DNA from: a virus
Length of the DNA stretch: 35,750 bases
Direction: 5' to 3' (one strand)
Virus record (IMG/VR): IMGVR_UViG_3300025645_000205
Coordinates: 1-35,750 of that record
Shown in pieces: positions 1 through 28,680 of the stretch. Both the position numbers and the translations under genes were made by a program. How positions within the stretch are numbered: position 1 is the stretch's first letter; each line of letters starts with the position of its first letter. The notes below the pieces were generated by a model. The model saw only the letters and a list, made by a program, of their open reading frames with translations. It was not told the DNA's origin and ran no database searches.

Positions 1-403
1 CTGATAGGGGTCAAGCATTCCCTAGAATTAGCCTCCCCCGCCCTTGTGTGGGCGTGTGCTGGCTTTTATTTGCCTAGCTATACTCTTTTAAATACTTTTT
101 TTTACGTCCCTTACAGGGGCTTAGGTTGCCTCTCAGGTGGCGCGTTTCTACCGTTATATAGTCCCGTTTAAGGCCCACATTACCGGGTGTCTAATAGTTA
201 ATCAGGATTGCGATAATTGATCACGGGCCGTTGTGTGGCCTCGCATAGGGTGTGCTGTGAGGGCCGTTATAAGCGCCTATAAAGGGCTGTGATCCAAGGG
301 CCAACATATGACCCGGTGGCGAACGTGCTATATAGGGCTATACAAGCGGCCCAGTAAGCACCTAAAAAAGCGCGGTAATTTTTGGCAATGATAAAAAAAG
401 GCT
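1..403. other. Gene-free GGCC-rich stretch
   Basis: No open frame with a credible start and ribosome site was found here on either strand. The DNA is unusually rich in GGCC and in short TATA/CTATA words, a texture shared with the cassette up to about 2400 and not with the rest of the window. No tRNA fold, CRISPR or IS end was seen. On the minus strand, the terL frame at the right window edge would stop at 66-68 if the ends were joined, so this is not the missing terL start. Confidence 0.5.
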
Positions 404-429
404 AAAAAAAAGGCCGCAATTAAGCGGCC
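404..429 (-). terminator. Intrinsic terminator of the left cassette
   Basis: Read on the minus strand, a GGCCGC / GCGGCC stem with the six-base loop TTAATT is followed directly by eight T residues. It lies about 20 bases past the stop codon of the last gene of the cassette (450-614). It therefore closes the transcription unit that begins near 2059. Confidence 0.85.
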
Positions 430-449
430 CGGTATAAAAAAGCGCAAAG

Positions 450-614
450 CTAGTCGGCACTATCCTGTTTTTGTTTTTTTTGAGCTATAAAGGCGAGCCA
501 AATTGTAAGCAATGTCAGCGAGTAAACTTGCGTATCGCTTGCAATTGGCGGTATCAAACAAATTGTGAAAAGCATCAAATAACAAAACGACCAGCGTATA
601 TTGTTTTTACTCAT
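450..614 (-). CDS. Small membrane protein, 54 aa, two predicted TM segments
   Basis: The ORF starts with ATG at 614 and begins MSKNNIRW. Two hydrophobic stretches (about residues 9-25 and 31-44) are joined by a short IPPIASDTQ turn and followed by a basic KKQKQ tail, so a helical-hairpin inner-membrane protein is likely. The start is set by a GCGGGAG ribosome site inside the recurrent leader element (615-643). It is the last gene before the terminator at 404-429. Its first residues (MSKN) match those of the DUF7227-like protein of the same operon, because the leader and start region are copied. Function is unknown; phage holin-like or exclusion proteins can look like this, but nothing specific supports either. 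Confidence 0.65.
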   Translation of the reverse strand: MSKNNIRWSFCYLMLFTICLIPPIASDTQVYSLTLLTIWLAFIAQKKQKQDSAD

Positions 615-643
615 CTTAAATTCTCCCGCTCAAAAGCGTTTAA
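615..643 (-). repeat. Leader element copy 1 (hairpin plus Shine-Dalgarno)
   Basis: On the minus strand it reads TTAAACGC TTTT GAGCGGGAGAATTTAAG and runs directly into the ATG of the 54-aa gene. CGCT/AGCG can pair around TTTG and the GCGGGAG gives the ribosome site. The stop codon of the upstream gene (640-642) sits inside the element. Close copies lie at 1752, 2009, 15150 and 18860. Confidence 0.85.
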
Positions 644-963
644 TAGTAAAGCGACCCGCTCGCTTTTAAATTTACATAAAAAAACAGAACTACAGCAATG
701 TTAAAGGCCATTAAATACCACCATAAAGAGTGCTCTAATAAGCGCCTAAACCGGCCCTTAACTTTGTGCCTTTTTAAATAGGCTTGCGCCTGATCAAAAG
801 TGTAGCGCTTCCCGGCTATGCTTATGACATGGGGAGCGCTAGCGCGCGGCCCGTTAGGCGTGAAAGCCCGTGTCACCGGCTTGCTAGTGTCTAAAATATT
901 AACATCCAATTTTAACGCTAGCAGCTCGAGGTATAACGCGCCTATAGCGGTGGGCCTGATCAT
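640..963 (-). CDS. Hypothetical protein, 107 aa, C-terminal TM segment
   Basis: The start ATG at 963 overlaps the stop of the preceding gene (960-1751) in an ATGA arrangement, so the two are translationally coupled. The soluble N-terminal part carries an HVISIAGKRYTFDQAQAYLKRH stretch near residues 45-66. A single hydrophobic segment (WWYLMAFNIAVVLFFYVNL, about residues 81-99) lies near the C terminus, which suggests a tail-anchored membrane protein. I do not recognise the family. Its coupling to the DUF7227-like protein suggests a shared task in the cassette. Confidence 0.65.
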   Translation of the reverse strand: MIRPTAIGALYLELLALKLDVNILDTSKPVTRAFTPNGPRASAPHVISIAGKRYTFDQAQAYLKRHKVKGRFRRLLEHSLWWYLMAFNIAVVLFFYVNLKASGSLYY

Positions 964-1751
964 GCGGCTACATCCACAACAAAGCCGCTGTAATCGTGCT
1001 TTGCCGGGCCTTTAGACTTTAGCCCTACAATATAAGGCCCGGCTATATCATCAATAAAACGTAAATCGGTTTCATCCCCATTGATAACCTTTAGCCCTTT
1101 ATATACCGCTGGTAGGTGCTTCCTAAACACTACGGCTAACCCTGTTTTAGCTAAAATAGCCGCGTTATAAGCTTTTTGAGCATATACCGTGCTTGCTTCG
1201 CTATAGCTAAAGGTTAAACTGTAATTTGCTGGAAGCTTACGACCGGCTAAAAAGTTATTCTTTGTATAATCGTAAAATTTTATATGCGGGAAGTGTTCAA
1301 AAATGCTAGCCGTTAGTCCATTGGGCCCGGCAAATTGCTCACTCAGATAGTTAATATCGCTAGTACCATTTAGGCGAACCGCTGGTATCAATTGTTCGCG
1401 CTTTGCTTTGCGCTCTAGCGCTTGAATTTCAAAATATAAAGCAGTAAAAAAAGCCTGTTTTTGTAAAATAAAGGCTTTAGCCCTTGCTAGCCGTGCCGGT
1501 CTTATGCCTTTATATACCTGAATTAAACCGGCTTCATACAAACAACCGGCAGCACACTGGGCCACGACACTACTAGCGCACAAAGTACCTTTAAGGCCTA
1601 ACGCCTTATAAGCTATATCAGCAGGCGACATATATAAAACACCTGTTAAAAAGCCCATTTTTTTACCTTTAATAGTCTTAGCGTCCGCGTTAACGCTTAA
1701 TAGGCTATTACAGTTTATTGCGCGCAAGGCGCTAGCTTTGTTTTTACTCAT
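960..1751 (-). CDS. DUF7227 / gp88-like phage protein
   Basis: This 263-aa protein has the pattern I associate with the phage DUF7227 (gene product 88-like) family. That pattern is a GVLYMSPAD segment near residue 37, a cysteine cluster (LCASSVVAQCAAGCLYEAG, about 57-75), an RPARLARAKAF stretch, then PAVRLNGTSDINYL (about 124-137) and FPHIKFYDYTKNNF (about 154-167). The biochemical role of this family is not established to my knowledge. The gene starts with ATG at 1751, set by the leader element at 1752-1780, and ends in an ATGA overlap with the next gene. It is the largest gene of the left cassette. The family call comes from memory of the motif order. Confidence 0.7.
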   Translation of the reverse strand: MSKNKASALRAINCNSLLSVNADAKTIKGKKMGFLTGVLYMSPADIAYKALGLKGTLCASSVVAQCAAGCLYEAGLIQVYKGIRPARLARAKAFILQKQAFFTALYFEIQALERKAKREQLIPAVRLNGTSDINYLSEQFAGPNGLTASIFEHFPHIKFYDYTKNNFLAGRKLPANYSLTFSYSEASTVYAQKAYNAAILAKTGLAVVFRKHLPAVYKGLKVINGDETDLRFIDDIAGPYIVGLKSKGPAKHDYSGFVVDVAA

Positions 1752-1780
1752 CTTAAATTCTCCCGCTCAAAAGCGTTTAA
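1752..1780 (-). repeat. Leader element copy 2
   Basis: It is identical to copy 1 over the 28-29 bases before the ATG of the DUF7227-like gene. Read in frame with the upstream 73-aa gene, past that gene's stop, it would encode LNAFERENLR and stop at the overlapping TGA of ATGA. This hints that the element descends from the 3' end of a coding sequence. Confidence 0.85.
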
Positions 1781-1786
1781 AATTGT

Positions 1787-2008
1787 TTAAATTGCTGAAA
1801 ATAAAACTACTGCATAAAATGCGGCTAGTGTAAAAAGCATTAAAAGGCCCGTTATTACTTGCAAGCGGTCACTATGCTTTTTTATATAACGCACACTAGT
1901 ACGGCTAGGCGTTGCGTATTTAAGCATTGATACTTCATGGCACACTATCAATGCGACTAGGGCCGCTAAAAAAGCCGATCCGGCTAATATACTTAAAATC
2001 AAAATCAT
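1787..2008 (-). CDS. Small membrane protein, 73 aa, two TM segments
   Basis: I place the start at the ATG at 2008 (MILILSILAG), since a longer TTG start at 2026 would lie inside the leader element and its ribosome site. Two hydrophobic helices (residues 1-23 and about 53-72) flank a basic middle part (SRTSVRYIKKHSDRLQ). It is the first gene behind the promoter at 2066-2094 and is followed by the DUF7227-like gene. No family was recognised. Together with the 54-aa and 107-aa genes it makes three of the four cassette products membrane proteins. Confidence 0.7.
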   Translation of the reverse strand: MILILSILAGSAFLAALVALIVCHEVSMLKYATPSRTSVRYIKKHSDRLQVITGLLMLFTLAAFYAVVLFSAI

Positions 2009-2036
2009 CTTAATTCTCCCGCTCAAAAGCGTTTAA
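2009..2036 (-). repeat. Leader element copy 3
   Basis: This copy has one A fewer than copies 1 and 2 in the spacer before ATG, and otherwise shows the same CGCT-TTTG-AGCG hairpin and GCGGGAG ribosome site. It belongs to the 5' leader of the transcript predicted to start near 2059. Confidence 0.8.
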
Positions 2037-2039
2037 TTG

Positions 2040-2058
2040 CGGCCTAATCGTTAGGCCG
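2040..2058 (-). other. 5'-terminal mRNA hairpin of the left cassette
   Basis: The inverted repeat CGGCCTAA - TCG - TTAGGCCG gives an eight-base-pair stem with a three-base loop. It begins at the predicted transcription start (about 2059) of the promoter at 2066-2094, so it would form the very 5' end of the mRNA. Such 5' stem-loops are known to stabilise bacterial mRNAs. There is no T run, so I do not call it a terminator. It could instead be a DNA operator. Confidence 0.55.
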
Positions 2059-2065
2059 TGCATGC

Positions 2066-2094
2066 AGTGTAGTTAAACTATATATATGTAGCAA
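2066..2094 (-). promoter_or_regulatory. Promoter of the left cassette, with PR/PL-like operator
   Basis: On the minus strand the -35 TTGCTA (2094-2089) and -10 TACACT (2071-2066) are separated by 17 bases. The whole segment aligns without gaps with the two immunity promoters at 15937-15965 and 16728-16756, sharing CTTGC, a central TAGTTT and CTAyACT. The spacer and -10 contain the palindrome TAGTTAAACTA (2070-2080), matching the TAG-N5-CTA core of the immunity operators. I infer control by the phage repressors. Confidence 0.65.
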
Positions 2095-2461
2095 GCCATA
2101 ACGCGCAACTATAGCCGCGTTATTGCTACCGGCCTTTATAAGCCGTGCTTATTTAACAGGCCAACCGAATCGCTTACATGCCGGGATAAAACCAGGCATA
2201 AAACAAGCGAAAAAAGATAATAAAAACAATGACTTACAAGCCCCGGCATCGAGGGCGAAACCAAAAACCCTTTAAAATCAGACACTTACAAACAGGCCAA
2301 AAAAACCTTTTAAAATCAGGTGCTTATGACTGCCTGATCATAAATCGACCTTTCAGGTCAAAAAACAGTCAAACGGCCTCATATTAAATCAGTCTAAGGA
2401 AATGGTTGGGAAAAAATAAAAAAAAATCGCTATATCTGAAAAAACAAAACACAAAATTAAA
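2095..2461. other. Long intergenic region with four degenerate repeats
   Basis: No gene is seen. Four related words occur on the plus strand: cgcttacatgccggg (2171), gacttacaagccccgg (2231), cacttacaaacaggcc (2283) and tgcttatgactgcctg (2321). Two of them are preceded by CCTTTTAAAATCAG-like or CCCTTTAAAATCAG-like sequence. The spacing shrinks from about 60 to about 40 bases. They could be binding sites for the neighbouring Aca2-like regulator or remnants of iterons; the sequence does not decide. Confidence 0.4.
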
Positions 2462-2502
2462 TAGTTTGACTTCTTTAAATTATTTTAATCATTATCAAAC
2501 TA
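2462..2502. other. Inverted repeat across the stop of the Aca2-like gene
   Basis: TAGTTTGA (2462-2469) and TCAAACTA (2495-2502) form a perfect eight-base inverted repeat with a 25-base spacer. The right arm contains the stop codon of the Aca2-like gene. It could be a weak A/T-rich terminator hairpin or an operator. Confidence 0.4.
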
Positions 2503-2827
2503 ATCTTATTTTCTCTTCCAAAAATAATTGAGTTACTACTGACTGATACATCTTCCAATCCAGTTTGTCTCTGTTAGGGAAGTCTCTAAGATAGTTTGCC
2601 ATAGTCCCATAGAGGGGCAACTCTTTAGAGTTTTCCAAAGCACTATAAAGAGACTTTCTGTCCTGCATTATCTTGCTGCAAGTCTCCAGAACATCATCGT
2701 AAATCTCATACTTTCCTGACTCGATATATTCCCAAGTTCTTGGTCTGAACTTACCAATCAAATCAGCAGCCTCAACGACATCAAGAAACAATTGAAGTCG
2801 TAACGCTTTTAATTCCAACCTATTCAA
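2495..2827 (-). CDS. Aca2-like HTH regulator (DUF1870/YdiL-like)
   Basis: The 110-aa protein begins MNRLELKALRLQLFLDVVEAADLIG, then has a WEYIESGKYEIYDDV segment near residues 32-46. Near the C terminus it has DWKMYQSVVTQLF. This order closely resembles anti-CRISPR associated protein 2 (Aca2) and other DUF1870 helix-turn-helix proteins, whose signature is LxAIRxLLMLDVSEAAxxI...SWQYWESG...VPDDV and a late W-x-x-SQSVA segment. Aca2 represses acr operons by binding inverted repeats. The start is TTG at 2827, chosen because a GGGGGG ribosome site precedes it. A promoter with -10 TAGAAT (2862-2867) is plausible. The next genes downstream on this strand, after about 480 bases, are the left cassette. 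No acr gene is recognised. Confidence 0.7.
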   Translation of the reverse strand: MNRLELKALRLQLFLDVVEAADLIGKFRPRTWEYIESGKYEIYDDVLETCSKIMQDRKSLYSALENSKELPLYGTMANYLRDFPNRDKLDWKMYQSVVTQLFLEEKIRLV

Positions 2828-2920
2828 TGCTTTTCCCCCCGGAAATTGATGCTACTTTTCTATTCTAACACAACCAAAAAGCCTAAAAAATAAGCCTGTT
2901 TTTTTATCTTCCTGCATATA

Positions 2921-2941
2921 CCCCCCCCCCTGCTACCCCCC
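2921..2941. repeat. C10 and C6 homopolymer tracts
   Basis: Ten C residues (2921-2930) and six (2936-2941) lie just after the HNH gene and upstream of the Aca2-like gene, read as G tracts on the transcribed strand. Tracts of this length are prone to slippage. They sit between the HNH stop and the likely promoter of the regulator. Confidence 0.7.
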
Positions 2942-3273
2942 TATTTTGAATCAATAGTAGAAGTCTTATGGCTGTGGCAGGGTGGACATAGAGCTTGCAG
3001 ACCTTGCACATCATAGAAGGTGCTGACCCATGCAGGGTTGTTAGCAGCGCCCTTGATATGATCTACATGAGTAGCTATCTGCTTCTTACACATCTGACAT
3101 AGATGACTGTCACGCCTTAGCACAGCCTCTCTTGTCATTCTCCAGCGCTTGCAGTGGTAGAGCTTATTGCTTTCTTTTCGGTTTCTTTTATTGCCCCACT
3201 TGTGTTTAGGACACTTACATATAACAGATGACTTCTGACACTTACCGCAAACGCGAGGTGCTGAATTAGGCAT
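2941..3273 (-). CDS. HNH endonuclease
   Basis: This 110-aa protein has two CxxC pairs near the N terminus (CGKC, CKCP), then the HNH core LCQMCKKQIATHVDHIKG (about residues 58-75). The core ends in LQALCPPCHSHKT with the last histidine and zinc cysteines in place. It is a metal-dependent nuclease; HNH proteins of this size in HK97-type phages often sit near the terminase and help packaging or cos cleavage. Here it follows the large virion gene, and its ATG overlaps that gene's stop by eight bases. Its place, well ahead of terL in the transcription direction and with a cassette in between, is consistent with a packaging role but does not prove it. Confidence 0.85.
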   Translation of the reverse strand: MPNSAPRVCGKCQKSSVICKCPKHKWGNKRNRKESNKLYHCKRWRMTREAVLRRDSHLCQMCKKQIATHVDHIKGAANNPAWVSTFYDVQGLQALCPPCHSHKTSTIDSK

Positions 3274-15149: not shown

Positions 15150-15190
15150 GTTTGCCCCCGCTCAATAGCGTTTTTTTTACTTTGGCTCAT
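15146..15190 (-). CDS. 14-aa upstream ORF coupled to the helicase
   Basis: ATG at 15190, behind AGGTGG, opens a 14-codon frame (MSQSKKNAIERGQT). Its TGA overlaps the helicase ATG as ATGA. The NAIERG part is the translated leader element, and the 64-aa ORF at 18698-18892 ends in a similar NAIEREKLK. It probably serves to deliver ribosomes to the helicase start. Confidence 0.45.
   Translation of the reverse strand: MSQSKKNAIERGQT
15150..15178 (-). repeat. Leader element copy 4
   Basis: On the minus strand it reads AACGCTATTGAGCGGGGG then CAAAC before the helicase ATG. The CGCT-ATTG-AGCG hairpin and G-rich ribosome site match the other copies, with A for T in the loop as in copy 5. Confidence 0.75.
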
Positions 15191-15744: not shown

Positions 15745-15930
15745 TCAGTGATCTACCTTAGAAAGCTCTTTCACTTCGTAAATGCGCGTAAATTTGGGAT
15801 TGGTCTCAACGTAGATGGCGCGTTTGTTAGCAATGGCTTGACCCACCGCGCTATTAGTGACACCAAGCATTCTTGCAACACTTGCTTTTGTGTGGGTGGC
15901 TAAATATTGGTCTAGGCTTTGAGTAGTCAT
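15745..15930 (-). CDS. cro: Cro-like repressor
   Basis: The 61-aa protein has a Cro-type HTH: LDQYLATHTKASVARMLGVTNSAVGQAIANKRAIYV (about residues 6-41), like Cro/YdaS-type small repressors. It is the first gene of the minus-strand early operon, opposite the CI gene. The ATG at 15930 falls exactly at the predicted transcription start of the PR-like promoter, and no ribosome site precedes it, so the mRNA should be leaderless. It would bind the operators in 15938-16046 and at 16713-16755. Confidence 0.85.
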   Translation of the reverse strand: MTTQSLDQYLATHTKASVARMLGVTNSAVGQAIANKRAIYVETNPKFTRIYEVKELSKVDH

Positions 15931-15936
15931 ACGCGC

Positions 15937-15965
15937 AGTATAGCGAAACTACATCTCATGGGCAA
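15937..15965 (-). promoter_or_regulatory. PR-like promoter (for cro operon)
   Basis: On the minus strand -35 TTGCCC and -10 TATACT are 17 bases apart. The start is predicted at 15930, the A of the cro ATG. The 17-bp operator 15938-15954 (GTATAG-N5-CTACAT read on plus) overlaps the -10 and spacer. Nearly the same sequence forms the PL-like promoter at 16728-16756. Confidence 0.8.
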
Positions 15966-16107: not shown

Positions 16108-16482
16108 ATGCGACCAAAGATAGACGAAAGAAGAAAGAAGAAAGAAGGTTTGATGCTACGAAAATTATTTAATGCAGCAAAAGATAAAGAGCCGACATTA
16201 ACTCAAGAAGGGTTAATAGAAGAAATGGGCCTGAAATCACCACCGCTATTCTTTCAGTGGTGCGATGGCCGAACCAATATCCCGGACAAAAGATTGCTGT
16301 GGTTAGCTGATAGGCTAAAGTTTGACGCAGCTAAATTTCGCCCAGAAATGCTTAATTACAGTAATAGCAGCGATTCTCTTCTGGCAGAGGTTATGGAGGT
16401 TTACTCAACCCTAACAGAAGATGACAAGGTTGCATTACTAGCACAAGCAAGGCTGCTTAGTCGGGCGCACAGTAGCTCGTAA
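16108..16482 (+). CDS. CI-like repressor without peptidase domain
   Basis: The 124-aa protein has a lambda-CI-like N-terminal domain: basic RRKKKEGLMLRKLFNAAKDK, then LTQEGLIEEMGLKSPPLFFQWCDGRTNIPDKRLLWLADRLKFDAAKFRPEM (about residues 31-80; the HTH lies in the first half). A short helical C terminus (LLAEVMEVYSTLTEDDKVALLAQARLL) may dimerise. There is no S24 peptidase domain, and none is hidden downstream in another frame. The start has a strong GAAGGAGG ribosome site. It should silence PR, PL and perhaps the left-cassette promoter. Without the peptidase it cannot self-cleave upon SOS. Confidence 0.85.
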   Translation: MRPKIDERRKKKEGLMLRKLFNAAKDKEPTLTQEGLIEEMGLKSPPLFFQWCDGRTNIPDKRLLWLADRLKFDAAKFRPEMLNYSNSSDSLLAEVMEVYSTLTEDDKVALLAQARLLSRAHSSS

Positions 16483-16674: not shown

Positions 16675-16729
16675 AAAGTTAAAACTTTAGCAAGACCATT
16701 TATATTATTTACATATAGTTTCACTACTT
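16675..16729. promoter_or_regulatory. OL-like operators upstream of PL
   Basis: ATATAGTTTCACTACTT (16713-16729) matches the TAG-N5-CTA operator core and is centred 26 bp before the operator inside PL (16739-16755). A perfect palindrome AAAGTT-AA-AACTTT (16675-16688) lies further upstream. This looks like a two- or three-site OL. Confidence 0.6.
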
Positions 16730-16756
16730 GCCATTGATATGTAGTTTGTCTATACT
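16728..16756 (+). promoter_or_regulatory. PL-like promoter (recombination/xis/int operon)
   Basis: -35 TTGCCA and -10 TATACT are 17 bases apart; the predicted start is near 16763. Over the 29 bases it differs from the PR-like promoter at only a handful of positions and shares ATGTAGTTT and CTATACT. The first gene follows at 16786 with GGGGAG six bases before ATG. Confidence 0.82.
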
Positions 16757-17103: not shown

Positions 17104-17275
17104 TAACTTTCGAGCGCACTGTATTAGCTTTTACGCTTTTTACTGCGTTATTCCTTATCGACAAAATCCTTACCAGAGCGATGTCTGCGAATTTGATGCT
17201 GATGTAATCAGTGGTGATGCACTTATTGCCCTGAGCCTTTGGGTCTTACTAACGCTAATGAGCGAAAACTTATGA
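17087..17275 (+). CDS. Hypothetical protein, 62 aa
   Basis: This starts at ATG 17087, overlapping the previous gene by 17 bases, and ends in a TTATGA overlap with the next. The product has an aromatic start (NFRAHCISFYAFYCVIPY) and a hydrophobic C-terminal stretch (ALIALSLWVLLTL). The ribosome site is weak. A competing short frame (a 35-aa hydrophobic peptide starting TTG at 17100) exists, so confidence is modest. Confidence 0.45.
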   Translation: MEFNIDNFRAHCISFYAFYCVIPYRQNPYQSDVCEFDADVISGDALIALSLWVLLTLMSENL

Positions 17276-18697: not shown

Positions 18698-18892
18698 ATG
18701 AGCAAACAAAGAAAGCCGACTATCAAATTTTTTTGTAGTTTGGGAATTCTTAGACTAGGCCACTATAAAACCAAAATAGAATCGAACGGCACTAACATTT
18801 GCATAATTTTGATTGATCATAAGGGCCAAAAATACTTTGGTGTAAATGGAGTTAAAACTTTAAACGCTATTGAGCGGGAAAAATTAAAATGA
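18698..18892 (+). CDS. Small basic protein, 64 aa
   Basis: MSKQRKPTIKFFCSLGI... is basic and beta-like, and ends LNAIEREKLK. The last residues are encoded by leader element copy 5, and the TGA overlaps the ATG of the next gene. No family was recognised. It is one case where the element is part of a longer coding sequence. Confidence 0.6.
   Translation: MSKQRKPTIKFFCSLGILRLGHYKTKIESNGTNICIILIDHKGQKYFGVNGVKTLNAIEREKLK
18860..18888 (+). repeat. Leader element copy 5
   Basis: TTAAACGCTATTGAGCGGG followed by an A-rich spacer runs into ATG 18889. It is on the opposite strand and in the other early operon compared with copies 1-4, so the element is phage-wide. Confidence 0.8.
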
Positions 18893-23689: not shown

Positions 23690-24753
23690 CGCTTTAAGCC
23701 TTTCGCATCAATAGTCCACTCAACCCGACCTGTGTAGTCTTTTACTCTTGGTGGTTTAATGGTTTTTTCTACCCAGCAGAAAGCCGTGTCTGCACCCGCG
23801 CCATTATCTAATCTATTCTCAACATCCCAAGCTAAATAGAATGGCTTGGTTTGAAGTGATTCATACAAACCTTTCTTCAACTCTGTTCGCAAAACCTCTT
23901 CATCGAGTAATTTAAAGTCAAGCTTCACATCAAAAGGCGCATCACGGTAGCTTGCAGGTAGCGGATTATTATTATTATTGCGCTTGCCTGTTCGCTCCAA
24001 TGTTTGATAGATACCGGCTGGCGTAAATGGCGCTCGCAGAGAAAACTTGTCAACCACGTTTTCTATCTTTAAAGATTTGCCAACGTAAAAATTCGACACT
24101 TGTGGAATTTCAGTGTTCGATCCCGAATTAAACGAAGGAAAATATAATGTGACATATCTTTTTGAATACGTTTGACTTGTCTTGTGAATATAGACATTGC
24201 CTTCTGTATTTATATCAACTAAAGCCTCGTTAAGATTACTTGTGGAATCAGAAGCATATAAAAAAACAGGGGTAAAATAGTCACTTAAATAAAAGTTATG
24301 GCCTGAAAATGCAACGGTGTCCCATTCTGGGACGAAGGTTAGCTCATAGTCCCAAGTTCCTTGTTGCACAGTAATTGAATCGACATCAATGTAATTTAAT
24401 TGCTCTAAGGTATTTGGTACTACCGTTGCAGTTGCTCCAGCACTAGGGCCAGAGGTTATGGTAAGAGTCCAACCATCCCAAAAGCCTTTAGGTTTTCTAT
24501 GGATTGGCGCAAGCACAACTCTTGTTCTTATTGCTGTTGATCCCGAAAAGCTCGTTGTTCCAGTGTATTTTTGCTGAAGATCAAAGTTAATGGCTAAAGT
24601 GATTTTAGCGGAAGTATCTAAGCGGCCATCTATACATCTTTCAAGCTCAAATCCATCAATGTTATCGCTAGTTGACCACCCTGACGGAACACCTCCGTAA
24701 GCAATACCATTACCCTTAGCAAGCAAATTATCCCAAAGCAACAAACCACTCAT
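23686..24753 (-). CDS. Minor tail protein, 355 aa
   Basis: The beta-rich protein (MSGLLLWDNLLAKGNGIAYG...) has a discoidin-like first half (IDGFELERCIDGRLDTSAKI). A later segment has a run of Asn (RNNNNNPLP) encoded by AAT repeats. It follows the tape measure by an ATGA overlap and precedes the hub protein by the same. No closer match is known to me. The place suggests a distal tail or tip protein. Confidence 0.6.
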   Translation of the reverse strand: MSGLLLWDNLLAKGNGIAYGGVPSGWSTSDNIDGFELERCIDGRLDTSAKITLAINFDLQQKYTGTTSFSGSTAIRTRVVLAPIHRKPKGFWDGWTLTITSGPSAGATATVVPNTLEQLNYIDVDSITVQQGTWDYELTFVPEWDTVAFSGHNFYLSDYFTPVFLYASDSTSNLNEALVDINTEGNVYIHKTSQTYSKRYVTLYFPSFNSGSNTEIPQVSNFYVGKSLKIENVVDKFSLRAPFTPAGIYQTLERTGKRNNNNNPLPASYRDAPFDVKLDFKLLDEEVLRTELKKGLYESLQTKPFYLAWDVENRLDNGAGADTAFCWVEKTIKPPRVKDYTGRVEWTIDAKGLKR

Positions 24754-28657: not shown

Positions 28658-28680
28658 AAAATGTAGTTAAGCTACATTTT
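28658..28680. promoter_or_regulatory. 23-bp perfect palindrome between the tail tube genes
   Basis: AAAATGTAG-TTAAG-CTACATTTT has nine-base arms and lies just after the stop of the first tube gene. As RNA it would be a hairpin with a short U tail, a possible attenuator. As DNA its core ATGTAG-N5-CTACAT matches the PR/PL operator family (ATGTAG-TTTCG-CTATAC, ATGTAG-TTTGT-CTATAC) and is the most symmetric copy. Confidence 0.65.

Follow-up and report, generated by a model that had tools for sequence, protein, structure and literature searches.

A candidate immunity operator on the promoter of a moron-like accessory cassette in a temperate phage

Lambdoid morons, such as HK97 gp15, are extra genes placed between phage genes that bring their own promoter and terminator and deviate in composition, and as a rule the prophage expresses them whatever the state of its lytic switch. 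We know of no third repressor-controlled early promoter in lambda, and phage P1 has many C1 operators as well as the partners Coi and Lxc. The P1 C1 repressor acts at operators placed within the P1 genome close to the promoters that it represses (PMC8198154), so the principle of one repressor with distal operators is not new. The stoperators of cluster A mycobacteriophages are numerous, and their repressor, which recognises an asymmetric sequence, brings elongation to an end (PMC9283540). At the level of translation, cluster K mycobacteriophages carry a repeated sequence with a Shine-Dalgarno element just before the starts of non-structural genes (PMC3203893).

The locus described here lies in a viral record of 35,750 nucleotides obtained only as metagenome sequence (IMGVR_UViG_3300025645_000205), the whole of which is referred to as the window. 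Dispersed repressor operators and moron-like cassettes are each known already, and their combination at this locus is a variant of both; in the part of the literature that was covered, no described case of a moron-like cassette with an immunity operator on its own promoter and with gene swapping was matched. The likeness to P1 is that one prophage repressor has operators near several promoters, which is predicted here from sequence, whereas the many operators and the Coi and Lxc partners of P1 are not seen and the distal site belongs to one swappable accessory cassette. The cassette resembles lambdoid morons in its extra genes, promoter, terminator and composition but differs from them in the immunity operator on its promoter, which suggests a direction of control opposite to moron-type prophage expression. 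The best-supported reading, which we hold to be probable, is that the cassette belongs to the immunity regulon and would be off in the lysogen and on with the early lytic genes. If so, a temperate phage holds exchangeable accessory genes under the control of its immunity switch rather than expressing them constitutively, and operator and leader together offer a sequence handle for predicting early lytic, possibly anti-defence, genes of this phage. The promoters, operators and regulators concerned are the following.

2066–2094, minus strand: P3, the cassette promoter, with -35 TTGCTA (2094–2089), a 17-base spacer and -10 TACACT (2071–2066)
2067–2083, minus strand: candidate operator ATATAGTTTAACTACAC, covering the P3 -10; top matrix score in the window
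15745–15930, minus strand: Cro-like protein, 61 aa (Pfam Cro 32.6 bits, 0.1 below the cut-off)
15937–15965, minus strand: leftward immunity promoter, with operator 15938–15954
16108–16482, plus strand: CI-like protein of 124 aa, so called because its gene stands opposite the Cro-like gene
16713–16729, plus strand: second rightward candidate operator ATATAGTTTCACTACTT, extending into the rightward -35
16728–16756, plus strand: rightward immunity promoter, with operator 16739–16755

A preliminary description had proposed that P3 is a third PR/PL-like promoter, aligning without gaps over 29 bases with the two immunity promoters. All three 29-mers are present where it placed them (leftward, 15965–15937, minus strand, TTGCCCATGAGATGTAGTTTCGCTATACT; rightward, 16728–16756, plus strand, TTGCCATTGATATGTAGTTTGTCTATACT; P3, 2094–2066, minus strand, TTGCTACATATATATAGTTTAACTACACT), and CTTGC, TAGTTT, CTAYACT and the 17-base spacing are indeed common to them. 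P3 is identical to the rightward promoter at 21/29 positions and to the leftward one at 19/29, the two immunity promoters sharing 24/29, and when every 29-mer of the window is scanned, only these two rank above it. Under Markov models of order 1–3, which include cassette-composition models and so allow for the TATA and CTAG richness of the cassette, 0–0.0024 P3-like 29-mers are expected by chance in the 2.4-kb cassette and 0–0.036 in the window; one such site occurs in other phage loci covering about 801,000 positions. The P3 spacer ranks third among the 23 TTGNNN-N17-TANNNT sites of the window, behind both immunity promoters. Because its sigma-70 hexamers match the consensus at only 8/12 positions, P3 is missed by a simple promoter scan; its transcription start is expected near 2059.

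The operator carries more weight than the promoter alignment. The immunity region contains three 17-bp sites, two of which (15938–15954 and 16739–16755) cover -10 elements while the third (16713–16729) reaches the rightward -35, and a symmetric 17-bp matrix was trained on these three alone (15938, 16713 and 16739). In the ranking of the window by this matrix, 2067–2083 comes first and 28661–28677 second, followed by the training sites, with the next site five bits below. The chance expectation for the P3 operator is 0.0008 in the window and 0.00006 under the cassette composition, and both top sites stay near the top when each training site is left out in turn. The P3 operator holds the same register relative to the -10 as those of both immunity promoters, although P3 has one candidate operator and the rightward promoter two. 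Four matches to RTRTAG-N5-CTAYAY occur in the window (2067, 15938, 16739 and 28661) versus 0.05 expected. Other loci, 1.26 Mb in total, contain two matches, and one of these (contig L056) was retrieved by a pattern containing the rule. A scan of other loci, mostly TerL relatives and 1.7 million positions in all, gives scores of at least 14 only on the two strands of the counterpart of the 28661 site in contig L061. The combined promoter-operator pattern is found among viral contigs only in this phage and in the unrelated L056, about the number expected by chance. The match of P3 at the operator level is more significant than that over the 29-base promoter, and the assignment of P3 as a third promoter of this type is borne out independently by a matrix that was trained on immunity-region sites alone and picks it. 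Operator-like sites at 2459 and 16030 are weak and at chance level (2.1 and 3.6 expected) and were set aside.

Neither the CI-like nor the Cro-like protein has relatives among annotated phages, and the CI-like protein occurs in viral contigs only as an identical copy and not at all in plasmids. It has no family or structure match, and searches confirmed no DNA-binding domain in it; the fold prediction is of poor quality (pLDDT 43) and was left unused. The mRNA of the Cro-like gene is probably leaderless, since the start codon is 7 bases past the -10 of the leftward promoter (15930–15942, minus strand).

Downstream of P3, the cassette forms what reads as a self-contained transcription unit, with a promoter, four genes and a strong terminator ahead of terS.

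2040–2058, minus strand: 5′-UTR hairpin CGGCCTAA-CGA-TTAGGCCG, directly past the expected start (inverted-repeat list and RNA fold)
2017–2033, minus strand: start-associated leader AACGCTTTTGAGCGGGA before the first gene, 16/17 to consensus
1787–2008, minus strand: predicted membrane protein, 73 aa, with two hydrophobic stretches (ATG behind the leader; hydropathy)
1761–1777, minus strand: start-associated leader before the GP88 gene, 16/17
960–1751, minus strand: GP88 family protein, 263 aa (PF17338, E 2e-29; phrog_1617, E 1.4e-54)
640–963, minus strand: protein of 107 aa with one hydrophobic stretch near the C-terminus, overlapping the GP88 gene end (ORF and hydropathy)
624–640, minus strand: start-associated leader before the last gene, 16/17
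450–614, minus strand: last cassette gene, protein of 54 aa with a weak hydrophobic stretch (ORF and hydropathy)
411–430, minus strand: intrinsic terminator GGGCCGC-TTAATT-GCGGCCT with a T tract behind it (terminator scan; 7 pairs, 6 of them G-C)
1–18, minus strand: first codons of terS, the rest lying outside the window (contig L039 spans the join)

Like a moron, this unit has its own promoter and terminator (P3 and 430–411, read from the sequence), differs in composition from the rest of the phage, and consists of extra genes that are absent at this site in related phages. Its genes had been described as four unknowns; one of them belongs to a named family, GP88 (PF17338), though that family is of unassigned function, and the other products match no known family. 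The 73-aa protein has no family match, and the 107-aa protein has a relative only in contigs L039/L040. PADLOC returned no convincing match, and Rfam none in positions 1–3000. The GP88 family has invariant C57, C65 and C69 and the motifs RLNG..D and FYDYTK, and is possibly an iron-sulphur enzyme; its structure model (pLDDT 78) has no significant fold match. In several podoviruses a GP88 relative lies no more than about 2 kb from a record end, and in HTVC134P one precedes the RNA polymerase gene, positions that fit early expression. From their location and membrane character, a role of the cassette products in counter-defence or superinfection exclusion can be guessed. The cassette (1–2400) is also rich in palindromic tetramers, with GGCC at 5.0 times expectation (25 versus 5), GCGC at 3.8, CCGG at 3.4, TATA at 2.3 and CTAG at 1.8; in the rest of the window the corresponding values are 0.8, 1.6, 0.9, 0.5 and 0.5.

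The start-associated leader, with the consensus AACGCT(A/T)TTGAGCGGGA, stands directly before three cassette genes. In this leader (AACGCTNTTGAGCGGGA; copies at 624, 1761, 2017, 15156, 17251 and 18863) a four-pair hairpin adjoins the Shine-Dalgarno element. Outside the cassette, a 16/17 copy at 15156 precedes the helicase gene of the leftward operon, a full match at 18863 precedes a gene of the rightward operon, and a weaker copy is found at 17251. No copy of at least 13/17 precedes the structural genes, and about 0.0002 matches of at least 16/17 are expected by chance. Since the leader is common to the cassette and both early operons, it ties the cassette to these operons independently of the promoter. 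Among viral contigs it occurs in this phage lineage only, apart from one match inside a coding gene (L057), and bacterial genomes contain two single matches to the pattern. The start-associated sequences of the cluster K mycobacteriophages are alike in position and gene class but unrelated in sequence, theirs being GGGATAGGAGCCC, while that of this phage has a small hairpin and few copies only.

The cassette occupies what appears to be a site of exchange. The record is an open circle (35750 to 1) that lacks 619 bases, in which the remainder of terS and the beginning of terL are located, as seen in L039, which spans the join. In Marinobacter phage AS1, the best TerL match, the record ends with an HNH gene and begins with terS, with no cassette between them. 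In several other phages related by TerL, terS is preceded at 100–150 bp by an ORF of about 130 aa. From these layouts, the cassette and the neighbouring Aca2-like gene look inserted at the HNH/terS junction. Contig L039 is 99.8% identical to the window over 2.2 kb across the terL end, and its cassette, with 94% identity at the terS side and 90% at the promoter side, has different genes in the middle. Three bases of its P3 are changed, each at an operator position where the immunity sites differ from one another too; random triple changes retain the L039-level operator score in 0.7% (equal rates) to 1.9% (transition-rich) of cases. As there are only three changes, this retention is modest support for selection. 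L039 is the only independent copy of the cassette found, on a contig that has no immunity region, and no heteroimmune relative carrying the cassette was found. Other samples yield contigs of this phage (L039, L047/L051, L041) that break off within the cassette or close to it, as would fit variation at this place in the population; the immunity promoters of L047 are the same as those of the window. A DNA search of a phage collection with window positions 1–25000 gave no match. We more tentatively suggest that the HNH–terS locus is hypervariable, exchanging genes while keeping operator-promoter and leader constant, such that an incoming gene would be silenced in the lysogen and fired early; the locus might thus act as a counter-defence socket, with the 28661 site as a roadblock or loop anchor in the late operon.

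Taken with the operator, these features support the reading of the cassette as part of the immunity regulon through four lines of evidence: the immunity-trained matrix, the early-operon leader, the operator kept in L039 and the terminator that isolates the unit. P3 would be a sigma-70 promoter, and the 17-bp palindrome RTRTAG-N5-CTAYAY that covers its -10 also covers those of both immunity promoters. We infer that a prophage repressor, probably the 124-aa CI-like protein, binds this operator and keeps the cassette silent in the lysogen, that P3 becomes active alongside the early operons on infection or induction, and that the Cro-like protein later binds the operator and damps the promoter. 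The four-gene unit, ending in its own terminator before terS and carrying the early-gene start leader with its hairpin and Shine-Dalgarno element, would then be a moron-like accessory cassette within the immunity regulon. Morons are often expressed in the lysogen, and P3 could instead be a constitutive moron promoter, active in the prophage, with its likeness to the immunity promoters arising from shared hexamers in a TATA- and TAG-rich cassette. A self-contained unit of this kind, with a promoter and terminator to itself and an unusual composition, follows the pattern of morons, and the skewed composition and small, membrane-type products point the same way. Yet cassette-composition models predict 0.00006 operators, and the likeness includes the operator at 16713, a site outside any -10 element; L039 retains the P3 operator, and the leaders are of the early-gene type. 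All of this makes constitutive expression unlikely.

Aca sites are located in core promoters (PMC9410906), and the gene adjoining the cassette (2495–2827, minus strand) encodes a homologue of Aca2, a member of the anti-CRISPR-associated regulator family, that is 32.8% identical to the protein of phage ZF40 and matches Aca2 in the PDB to E 3e-13. This neighbour, rather than CI or Cro, could control P3, as in acr-aca operons, where Aca attaches to a palindromic site inside the promoter. The likeness to the acr-aca2 operons of ZF40 consists of an Aca2 homologue adjoining a small accessory operon, but here the aca2-like gene (2827–2495) is upstream of P3 and outside its transcript instead of being the last gene of the operon downstream of an acr gene, and general family searches recognise no acr gene beside it. 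The palindrome of P3 has its matches around cro and cI and none upstream of the aca2-like gene, whereas the ZF40-type repeat (TTCG..CGAA) occurs once in the window, at 24116, and neither at P3 nor in front of the aca2-like gene, so we regard control by Aca2 as highly improbable. Equally hard to sustain, or slightly more so, is the notion of P3 as a late promoter reading through the cassette into terS–terL, which lie directly downstream on the same strand, and on into the structural genes, because P3 resembles early promoters and the strong terminator at 430–411 separates the last cassette gene from terS, even if an antiterminator could still permit read-through.

One further operator-like site, absent from the preliminary description, sits in the late operon.

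28661–28677, no strand assigned: orphan operator-like palindrome ATGTAGTTAAGCTACAT at the end of a major-tail gene; second-best matrix score, 0.0013 expected in the window

It has perfect half-sites, ATGTAG-N5-CTACAT, and no promoter is seen around it. It is like the cluster A stoperators in being a repressor-type site away from promoters, but is a single palindromic orphan. The site could be a repressor roadblock, a loop anchor or an RNA hairpin of chance resemblance. In L061 (position 6937) its 17-bp core is unchanged, and two flanking bases differ, weakening the longer hairpin.
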